DNA from: Bacteroidaceae bacterium
GTDB taxonomy: Bacteria > Bacteroidota > Bacteroidia > Bacteroidales > Bacteroidaceae
Length of the DNA stretch: 33,290 nucleotides
NCBI GenBank assembly: GCA_017556045.1
Contig: JAFZFF010000024.1
Coordinates: forward strand, 1 to 33,290
Reading direction: 5' to 3'
Both the position numbers and the translations under genes were made by a program. Of this stretch, positions 1,741 through 32,210 are shown one piece after another. The notes under the pieces were generated by a model. That model made no database searches. It was not told the origin of the DNA and saw nothing but the letters and a program-made list of their open reading frames with translations. Position 1 is the first letter of the stretch; each line of letters starts with the position of its first letter.

Positions 1741-1828
1741 TTTATCACAGGTTTGATAAAAGTTTATCACACCTGTGATATTTTTTTATCGTAGTAGTGA
1801 TAATTATTTGTCAAGCCTATGAAAAAGT
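1741..1828. repeat. 22-bp tandem repeat array A (4 units)
   Basis: Four head-to-tail units start at 1741, 1763, 1785 and 1807. Each is 6+8+6 bp plus a 2-bp spacer: TTTATC-ACAGGTTT-GATAAA, TTTATC-ACACCTGT-GATATT, TTTATC-GTAGTAGT-GATAAT, TTTGTC-AAGCCTAT-GAAAAA. The outer 6-mers are complementary within a unit, so every unit is a dyad. A degenerate unit may precede at 1719. Arrays with the same period and pattern occur at 19341 and 32145. Confidence 0.85.
1744..1787 (+). terminator. terminator-like hairpin made by repeat units 1 and 2
   Basis: ATCACAGGT (1744-1752) pairs with ACCTGTGAT (1771-1779). TGATAAA (1754-1760) pairs with TTTATCA (1763-1769), giving a 16-bp stem with one mismatch. A run of T (1781-1787) follows. 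It sits 26 bp after the stop of the upstream gene and fits a Rho-independent terminator. Confidence 0.7.
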
Positions 1829-19308: not shown

Positions 19309-19346
19309 AAGCAGGCTTGCCGTAAGGCAGGCCTGCTTTGTTTTTC
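19309..19346 (+). terminator. strong terminator of the large protein
   Basis: AAGCAGGCTTGCC (19309-19321), loop GTAA, and GGCAGGCCTGCTT (19326-19338) pair over 13 bp with one wobble, then TGTTTTT. The T run is the left arm of the first unit of repeat array B. Confidence 0.9.
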
Positions 19347-19428
19347 GCACCTATGAAAAGATTTTATCAAACTTGCGATAATTTTTTTTATTCAGTACGA
19401 AAAAGTTTTTTCGCACCTATGAAAAACT
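19341..19428. repeat. 22-bp tandem repeat array B (4 units)
   Basis: Units start at 19341, 19363, 19385 and 19407: TTTTTC-GCACCTAT-GAAAAG, TTTATC-AAACTTGC-GATAAT, TTTTTA-TTCAGTAC-GAAAAA, TTTTTC-GCACCTAT-GAAAAA, each followed by 2 bp. Units 1 and 4 are nearly identical. Left and right arms change together (TTTATC with GATAA, TTTTTC with GAAAA). It lies between the terminator and the lplA promoter. Confidence 0.88.
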
Positions 19429-19443
19429 TTGATAAAATAGTGC

Positions 19444-19479: not shown

Positions 19480-20502
19480 ATGCGCTATCTTCGAAACGAC
19501 AATACAGACCCCTATTTTAATATGGCTTTCGATGAGTATGCCCTACAGCAACTCTCACTCGAAGAACCGCTTTTTTATCTATGGCAAAATCGGCCAGCTG
19601 TAATTATTGGCCTTAATCAAAATCCATATGCAGAGGTTAATCTCGATTATCTACGAGATAATAATATTGCTTTGGCGCGTCGAGTTACAGGTGGTGGTGC
19701 AGTATATCATGATTTAGGTAACCTAAACTATACAATTGTTGGGCGAGCTAAAGACTTAGATAGAGACTACCCTGAATATACGCGTCATATGCTTCAAGCT
19801 TTACAAGCATTAGGCGTTAATGCTGAGCTTTCAGGACGTAATGATATATTGGTGTCAGGCCGTAAAGTGTCTGGATATGCCAAGCGAGTATATAAGGATC
19901 GTCTCATGGTTCATGGAACCTTGATGTACGATGTAGACCTTGAGGTCCTAGAGCAGGCTTTAAATGCCCCTACAAGTAAATTAGCTGGCAAAGGCGTAGC
20001 TTCTGTACGTAGTAGGGTGATGAACCTCTGTGAGTGTCTTCCTAATGTGACTGATATTACAGATTTTCGCATGCAATTGGAGCTGCACTTATCTTGTAAT
20101 TATCGTGATACGGAAGTTCACTTATCTCATGAAGATTTGAAGAAGATAGAACTTTCAGCCCGTAATAAGTTTGCCACTTCAGAGTGGATTTTCGGAACAG
20201 CAAGTATCGCTTTCACAAATGTGTCTTGCAACTCTCAAAAGGTGAATTATAAAAAACGTCTTCCGTGTGGTACGGTAGAGGTGTCTCTTGATATTCAAGG
20301 TGGCTATATAGCAGCATGCCTCTTTGGAGGAGATTTTATAGGGAACTTGCCTGTGTCGTATATTTCAGAAGCGCTTATCGGTGTACGCTATGAGGCAAGA
20401 GCTTTGCGTCAACGTCTGATCCCAATGGATGTTGCCTCTTATTTCGATAAGGTAGGAGTTGATGCTCTATTGGAACTTTTATTGCCCTCTAATCCTCAAT
20501 AA
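19480..20502 (+). CDS. lplA: lipoate-protein ligase A
   Basis: A 340-residue cytoplasmic enzyme that activates lipoate with ATP and attaches it to lysines of 2-oxoacid dehydrogenase E2 and glycine cleavage H proteins. The lipoate-binding motif RRVTGGGAVYHDLGNLNYT spans 67-85. GRNDILVSGRKVSGYAKR and HGTLMYDVD follow as in LplA, and a C-terminal accessory domain is present (about 250-340). The ATG at 19480 (MRYLRND) is chosen over a TTG four codons earlier. Its 3' end overlaps the convergent pdxB by 14 bp. Codon use is plain and AT-richer than the upstream gene. Confidence 0.93.
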   Translation: MRYLRNDNTDPYFNMAFDEYALQQLSLEEPLFYLWQNRPAVIIGLNQNPYAEVNLDYLRDNNIALARRVTGGGAVYHDLGNLNYTIVGRAKDLDRDYPEYTRHMLQALQALGVNAELSGRNDILVSGRKVSGYAKRVYKDRLMVHGTLMYDVDLEVLEQALNAPTSKLAGKGVASVRSRVMNLCECLPNVTDITDFRMQLELHLSCNYRDTEVHLSHEDLKKIELSARNKFATSEWIFGTASIAFTNVSCNSQKVNYKKRLPCGTVEVSLDIQGGYIAACLFGGDFIGNLPVSYISEALIGVRYEARALRQRLIPMDVASYFDKVGVDALLELLLPSNPQ

Positions 20503-23208: not shown

Positions 23209-23686
23209 TAGGTGGCAAAAGTTTATTTTCGGGGTGGCATGGCAGGCGAGCAGAGCTCGCTAATTAAAAATTGGAAACCAAAAATTAAAACGAACGAAAA
23301 ATACTCCCTTATACTTTTTCTCGGCCACATACTATTCGGTTTCTTCTTTTCTGTTGTTTTCTCATATTTGGCAAAGGATATATGTATAAAGGCGGCGACC
23401 ATACGCGCGAATGGACATGTACACACGCGCAAATGTAGCCGAGCATCCGCTCGAATGGTCGCCATAAATAATACGCAAACATTGCCAGAATTAGAGAATT
23501 ATTGAGCTATGAACTGAGAACAGTGGGCTATGGATTAATAGAGAATTGAAAATGGGAAATTGATAATTAGCCGTTCGAATGGTTAGCTGTCGACTCATAC
23601 CTCATGGATGCATCTCTTTACTTATAGCTCAGAACTTAAGCCCTTCGCTCTGCCATGCCACCCCATAAATGAACTTTTTTCACCTA
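23209..23686. mobile_element. MITE-like element with 37-bp terminal inverted repeats
   Basis: The ends 23209-23245 and 23650-23686 are inverted copies agreeing at 32 of 37 positions. The core GGGGTGGCATGGCAG is identical in both. The 478-bp element has no transposase. Short frames on both strands inside it look like noise. It contains a second inverted repeat (23394-23463). No clear target duplication is visible. It could be a non-autonomous transposon remnant or another dispersed repeat. A copy search in the genome would settle this. Confidence 0.6.
23394..23463. repeat. 70-bp imperfect palindrome inside the element
   Basis: GGCGACCATACGCGCGAATG (23394-23413) faces the inverted complement of 23444-23463, with 3 mismatches in 20. 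The stretch is GC-rich in an AT-rich surround and could fold as a cruciform or RNA hairpin. Confidence 0.6.
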
Positions 23687-32144: not shown

Positions 32145-32210
32145 TTTCTTGCACCTGCGGAAAATATTTGCCTCTTTGGTGATAAATTTTTCTCGAACTT
32201 GCGAAAAATA
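32145..32210. repeat. 22-bp tandem repeat array C (3 units)
   Basis: Units start at 32145, 32167 and 32189: TTTCTT-GCACCTGC-GGAAAA, TTTGCC-TCTTTGGT-GATAAA, TTTCTC-GAACTTGC-GAAAAA, each plus 2 bp. The period matches arrays A and B exactly. It lies between the FKBP terminator and the rpsL promoter. The rest of the 406-bp gap is AT-rich spacer. Confidence 0.8.

Follow-up and report, generated by a model that had tools for sequence, protein, structure and literature searches.

Positions 19341–19428 carry a tandem array of dyads, referred to here as array B, which is a diverged member of a dispersed family of non-coding repeats located between genes. The window, meaning the whole stretch of 33,290 nucleotides of Bacteroidaceae DNA that was analysed, carries two further arrays of the same kind and a fourth of unrelated sequence. 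In the reading that we prefer, with a probability of about 0.5, these are dispersed intergenic repeats, sometimes carried in a MITE-like element, whose dyads face one side of the DNA and probably bind a dimeric protein.

Arrays in the window

The features at array B are as follows.

19310..19345, forward strand: terminator-like hairpin with a T run, seen in the sequence
19341..19428, unstranded: array B, four 22-bp units, each a 20-bp imperfect dyad plus 2 bp
19429..19438, unstranded: tail-like sequence TTGATAAAAT, after the last unit of array B

The units start at 19341, 19363, 19385 and 19407, which bears out the exact 22-bp step described in the first-pass annotation, and units 1 and 4 have the common core GCACCTAT, as that annotation had stated. 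The centre signs of the units run +, p, m, +, and a repeat search found a 31-nt direct repeat inside the array, with copies 66 bp apart. The pattern given earlier for all four units, TTTWTC-N8-GAWAAA, holds literally for unit 4 and fails for units 1, 2 and 3: unit 1 ends in GAAAAG, unit 2 ends in GATAAT and unit 3 starts with TTTTTA. This pattern matched 4 times in the window against 0.04 expected, and a scan of the genome returned 14 places, compared with 7 for the pattern read backwards. The family is multi-copy, and the matches are not just the few expected by chance that would have spoken against it. CRISPR was rightly excluded, as the units of array B are separated by linkers of only 2 bp, without unique spacers. 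The first unit starts within the T run of the terminator-like hairpin, at which the repeat search found a palindrome (19324–19339). Beyond the last unit, 8 of 12 letters, at the best of four offsets, agree with TCTTGACAAAAC, the tail motif that adjoins some arrays in relatives and with which TTGATAAAAT was compared.

Three arrays that the first-pass annotation did not contain were found elsewhere in the window, one of them inside a larger element.

1741..1828, unstranded: array A, four 22-bp units in the order - + ? +, then tail-like sequence
23209..23686, unstranded: MITE-like element, 37-nt terminal inverted repeats enclosing the array at 23396–23461
23396..23461, unstranded: GC-rich dyad array, three dyads with a 22-bp step, found by a motif-free scan
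32145..32210, unstranded: array C, three weaker 22-bp units

Array A lies between the gene of a nucleoside-recognition protein and ybeY, and array C between the gene of an FKBP-type isomerase and rpsL (Pfam names). A unit model gave array A the highest score in the window (63.4), followed by array B (48.2 for its best three units, top place 19363) and array C (20.5). The next-best place scored -34.3, and none of 200 local dinucleotide shuffles exceeded -14.8, so that the arrays at 1741, 19363 and 32145 all score above every one of the shuffles. This model was trained on 169 units solely from genomes G001, G013, G015 and G011, whose arrays had originally been located with R1, a model trained on the present genome, which qualifies its independence. 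The 88 bases of array B are thus a genuine array, far beyond chance.

The GC-rich array is unrelated in sequence to array B and includes an inverted repeat (23394–23413/23444–23463). The terminal inverted repeats of the element around it (23209–23245 and 23650–23686) are 86% complementary, and the whole element sits in a non-coding gap.

Dispersal in this genome and its relatives

R1, a sequence-only model built from five arrays, was searched against the draft genome, which comprises 2.54 Mb and is 78% complete. Of 1033 candidates, 150 were scored, which gave at least 87 rows at E<=1, both strands counted, and at least 19 places at E<=0.001 after overlapping rows were merged. Five of these 19 places had trained R1 and 14 were outside the training. 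The 16 arrays of this genome recognized by the unit model occupy nine tandem, three divergent and two convergent gaps; one of the other two is at a contig edge and one is in a 101-codon ORF. Tandem, divergent and convergent gaps are all represented in G001 (15 arrays) and G013 (12 arrays), and tandem and divergent gaps only in G015 (12 arrays). Counted over all four genomes, a called ORF of at least 100 codons contains 5 of 55 arrays, and 3 of 55 are at contig edges. In its multi-copy intergenic dispersal, combined with internal tandem repeats, the family resembles MITEs that carry a minisatellite, such as BrickBuilt.

At E<=0.001, R1 matched every one of the 19 same-genus genomes (own included), 2 of the 18 others in the family and none of the 24 others in the order. 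The family of array B is present in 12 of the 19 same-genus genomes, with at least one locus of each inspected. Units of the TTTTCATYGCRRTGAAAA type occur at 22 bp instead in G003, G009, G012 and G017, other dyads at 22 bp in G005 and G016, and a looser array with a step of about 21–22 bp in G018. G028 carries TTTATCACGTGTGATAAA units at 22 bp and G022, by our reading, dyads at about 21 bp. R2, a model with three hairpins for which 25 candidates were scored in each genome, matched at E<=1e-4 in at least 34 of the family's 201 genomes, belonging to at least 11 of 30 genera. The 22-bp step is part of both models, R1 and R2, so neither can prove it.

Apart from orthologous loci, no neighbouring gene recurs among 14 loci of several lineages (L141–L149, L201, L203 and others). 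Inspection of the ORFs of these 14 loci by eye gave no sign of a common neighbour gene or of an autoregulated binding protein encoded beside the arrays. A viral origin was rejected as well: a viral scan with the pattern of one unit gave two matches, both single units in one coding sequence and hence chance. A plasmid search with array B and a phage search with array A gave no match.

Several observations were made beside these searches. In three same-genus genomes (L161, L179, L187), the array takes up nearly the entire gap between co-directed genes, starting about 3 bases past the stop and ending about 9 bases ahead of the ATG, distances that depend on start codons that vary between ORF calls. 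Loci L050, L054 and L059 are three copies of another dispersed element in the present genome, and their flanks, compared by eye, are common around a weak three-unit array. A GAAATATCCGCGGATATTTAAT dyad array with a 22-bp step is found at two G001 loci (L277 3795 and L293 16956) with an identical downstream flank, and a resembling dyad adjoins an alpha array in G007 (L131).

A search for end motifs around the arrays, restricted to one motif with up to 5 errors, found terminal inverted repeats of this kind flanking the array at L172, L188 and L190 (3 of 40 fetched relative loci) and, in the window, flanking the GC-rich array; it did not find them around array B. At L190 the repeat is about 38 bp long, as read from the sequence. 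The counterpart of L190 in G007 is without the element and has 26 other bases in its place; no target duplication was seen there.

Step length and unit anatomy

The step was examined with a motif-free scan, which looks for three similar dyads at any step of 12–60 bp and uses no sequence of the family. In 1,625,290 bases from ten genomes of the family and the window, 53 tandem dyad arrays were found: 27 at 22 bp, 9 at 21, 1 at 23 and 16 at other steps, so that 36 of 53 have a step of 21 or 22 bp. Their density in these 1.63 Mb is biased upwards because most stretches come from contigs with array matches. Three shuffles of all 1,625,290 bases gave 13 matches, none at 21 or 22 bp. The sequences of the 22-bp units are unrelated to one another, for instance AACGCCAAGTGCTTAGCGTGC in G217, TTTTTCCCCAGTTGGAGAAAAA in G183 and GTGACCCAACGCGTTGGTACAC in G009, and 32 of the 36 arrays at 21–22 bp lie outside ORFs of at least 100 codons, which make up 90% of the stretches. 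No array at 21–22 bp was present in 100 kb each of G023 and G027, of the same family. A set of TTCTCA..TGAGAA dyads in G183 (L326 12906) has a step of 23, one base from the usual 22.

The 475,523 unselected bases of lplA-relative loci in Bacteroidota contained six arrays at 22 bp, six at 12 bp and seven more at seven other steps. Of the six 22-bp arrays, those at L079 and L095 are new, and the other four belong to the alpha and beta families. The outgroups, taken from the same order, from other phyla and from E. coli, amounted to 531,088 bases, in which eight arrays had other steps and none had 21 or 22. The pooled rate would predict 10.6 (P 2.4e-5) and the rate in the unselected loci 6.7 (P 0.0012); one shuffled stretch of G038 gave a match at 21.

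These counts depend on thresholds that were lowered after a first, strict scan had given nothing at 22 bp; the final values were chosen with data in view, since strict and looser runs preceded them, and the shuffles were also run at the final values. Without the demand that units be alike, G203 gave 76 arrays against 30–50 in shuffles, with 21 bp on top, and G001 gave 84 against 36–63, with 22 bp not outstanding; with the demand, 21–22 bp is outstanding in both. The spacing of two helical turns proposed from array B is thus recovered, as a preference for 21–22 bp, across unrelated sequences and by a scan that does not presuppose it.

The anatomy of the units was described from a recall set of 56 arrays (219 units) from 61 loci. 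The step is exactly 22 in 161 of 163 cases, with a finder that allowed 21–23 with a penalty, and 51 of the 56 arrays have 3–5 units. By our reading, the 20-bp consensus is approximately WTTDTCRNRCCTRYGAHAAW. Of 219 units, 167 have CC or GG at the centre; a complementary centre is seen in 5 of 91 against 31 expected, so most units have a direction. Most are therefore not true palindromes, a point against the preferred reading, since a symmetric homodimer does not need a non-palindromic centre. The unit order -++?+ occurs in 5 of 56 rows and -+?+, the order of array A, in 4 of 56, representing about seven different loci by our count; the other 47 rows have other orders. The tail TCTTGACAAAAC agrees in at least 9 of 12 letters in 24 of 56 rows, in the orientation picked by that score. 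Near 14 of the 56 arrays, no more than 130 bp away, there is a second array of dyads, AGTTT-N10-AAACT, against a chance expectation of 0.003 per array (from G001 stretches). It is within one base of an identical 22-bp register in 12 of these 14, the exceptions being L170 and L197; some of the 14 are mutual orthologues.

Conservation was summed by us over 8 of 19 apparently orthologous locus pairs, one per locus, and gave 739 of 775 identical positions in arrays against 1342 of 1500 at other non-coding positions. Identity was higher in the array in six pairs, equal in one (3 comparison bases) and lower in one. Coding identity is low in L162/L191 (0.67) and L165/L177 (0.79), which makes these two alignments doubtful. 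In several pairs the array is about as conserved as coding sequence, and overall the excess over other non-coding sequence is modest.

Dyads spaced by whole helical turns are to be expected in a cooperative protein-binding array, and the two-turn step of array B is, as first suggested, compatible with dimers bound on one face of the DNA. In the preferred reading, the functional unit is probably the dyad itself, whose length of about 20 bp would suit a homodimer. A 22-bp step would place successive dimers on nearly the same face and so permit side-by-side binding. Blocks of mostly 3–5 units, some with the tail and the second dyad array, would have spread by copying to other places in the chromosome, occasionally as part of an element bounded by terminal inverted repeats of about 38 bp. 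From the geometry we infer that a dimeric protein binds, that it does so cooperatively and that chromosome organisation or the expression of neighbouring genes may be affected.

A rather unlikely alternative, which nonetheless accounts for part of the data, is that the arrays are purely selfish MITE-like or minisatellite repeats of the BrickBuilt or BOX kind, in which a transposase acts on the ends and slippage expands the units, without a host protein or helical constraint. Dispersed copies, some with a common internal order, agree with it, as do the terminal inverted repeats of three loci and of the window element, the absence of the element from the G007 counterpart and the differing numbers of beta units in the apparent orthologues L160 and L176. 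It leaves unexplained why unrelated sequences have 21–22 bp in common, why the step is 22 almost throughout the recall set and why two different arrays keep a common register, and a search limited to PF01797 found no autonomous partner.

Binding of dimers on one face, the preferred reading, has to accommodate the fact that many unit sequences have the step, even within one genome, so that one protein cannot be reading one sequence. We tentatively consider it possible that the arrays form a class defined by geometry across the family: intergenic imperfect palindromes every 21–22 bp, with several unrelated units per genome. Unit sequences would then vary from lineage to lineage. They would be read by a set of diversifying dimeric DNA-binding proteins, or by one protein that recognizes shape or cruciforms, building patches on one side of the helix in intergenic regions throughout the chromosome. 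Repeats dispersed between genes are nothing unusual, but a two-turn step across unrelated sequences would suggest a physical constraint, for which the simplest source is a protein assembled along one face of the DNA. This would, if true, represent an undescribed layer of chromosome organisation or regulation in gut Bacteroidaceae.

The first-pass annotation also held that the two arms change in compensation, T in one matched by A in the other. This agreement is present in units 1, 2 and 4 of array B and is no rule across the family. Covariation was counted on 91 units of 24 non-redundant arrays, after a harsh removal of near-duplicates (56 to 24). Complementarity within units totals 551 against 562 expected (z -1.05); the variable arm position is complementary in 40 of 91 units against 30.5 (z 2.3). 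Neighbouring left arms agree in 34 of 65 cases where 21.0 would be expected (z 3.5), so the units of one array resemble each other. For position 7, z is 2.3 within units, 2.8 across junctions and 1.4 between left arms. In a mixed alignment of 13 three-unit rows, 78.2% of the cells pair compared with 77.7% when shuffled, 195 of 500 shuffles being as high, and the covariation score was equalled by 88 of 500. Compensating change is thus not upheld.

These counts also bear on an improbable reading in which the units act in transcripts as tandem RNA hairpins, in stability, termination or attenuation. Short hairpins could in principle form from the units, and the start of array B in a terminator-like T run suits this idea. 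Against it, covariation is no greater than in shuffles, and in 25 arrays between co-directed genes sense-strand mismatches are G-U and A-C equally (62 and 62). Array polarity is indifferent to the genes: of the 25 arrays in tandem context, some of them orthologues, 13 run in the direction of the genes and 12 against it. Rfam gave no match in the window at gathering scores, and arrays are found in divergent gaps too. RNA-strand signals are absent, which favours a DNA rather than an RNA element.

Array B had further been placed in a role in front of lplA.

19480..20502, forward strand: lplA, lipoate-protein ligase, likely start ATG 19480

The product carries PF21948 (E 6e-63) and PF10437 (E 6e-17) in Pfam. 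Array B ends about 50 bp before the likely start codon, as an operator array of a local lplA regulator might; we consider such an operator highly unlikely, because the family occupies many unrelated gaps, convergent ones included, and R1, searched against 51 relatives, placed no array in the gap immediately preceding lplA. In lplA loci L065, L066 and L073, the R1 arrays stand at least 3 kb from lplA, and the large gene upstream of lplA had no match in the ten nearest loci. The association appears to be local to this genome, as far as the analysis reaches, and the position of array B beside lplA is incidental.

Comparison with known repeat systems

BOX elements of Streptococcus pneumoniae are mosaic intergenic repeats of modules of about 45–59 bp, one of them repeated variably. 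They differ from the present arrays in these module lengths, which are not two-turn dyads, and in belonging to another phylum. Tandem operators and iterons, such as the sites of ParR or Rep, likewise keep their repeats on one DNA face through spacings of whole helical turns; they are bound cooperatively and lie at one or few loci adjoining the gene of their binding protein. The present arrays, unlike these, are dispersed, without a recurring neighbour in 14 loci. In the open-licence part of the literature, no description of such two-turn arrays was found, which is not proof of absence.

Spread of REP/BIME-type palindromes by a RAYT (Y1 transposase) is very improbable: the arrays do consist of short intergenic palindromes of mixed polarity, and one PF01797 (Y1_Tnp) match each was found in G014, which bears arrays, and in G022, but 17 of 19 same-genus genomes (own, G001, G010, G013 and G015 included) and G028 have no match, with many genomes incomplete and the own one 78% complete. 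On this absence from the 17 genomes we rejected identity with RAYT/REP. Within the part of PMC3733652 available, REP/BIME resemble the arrays as short grouped intergenic palindromes and differ in that the arrays here have a strict 22-bp step and are mostly without a RAYT match.

Two further systems come from Porphyromonas gingivalis. The available part of PMC4596501 mentions the 464/PgRS MITE and the 22-nt tandem repeats of strain W83; the likeness is in the unit length of 22 of one class and in their occurrence in a Bacteroidales genome. According to the same part of that source, the BrickBuilt MITE is a dispersed intergenic element with 23-nt tandem repeats without spacers, leader and tail flanks, a variable repeat number and 19 copies in ATCC 33277 (PMC4596501). 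Like the present family, it is a dispersed intergenic element of Bacteroidales with internal tandem repeats. As far as that source is available, it differs in the unit (23 nt, against a 22-bp imperfect dyad here), in the repeat number (1 to 22.8, against the 3–5 units usual here) and in its ends, GAGACC...GGTCTC, which by eye are unlike those of L190 or of the window element (PMC4596501). On this partial description, the array family is closest in kind, by descent, to BrickBuilt; it is not filed as a member because its end sequence is unlike and only a minority of copies have terminal repeats. In action, judging by its geometry, it would most resemble a series of binding sites for a dimeric protein arranged on one face of the DNA.
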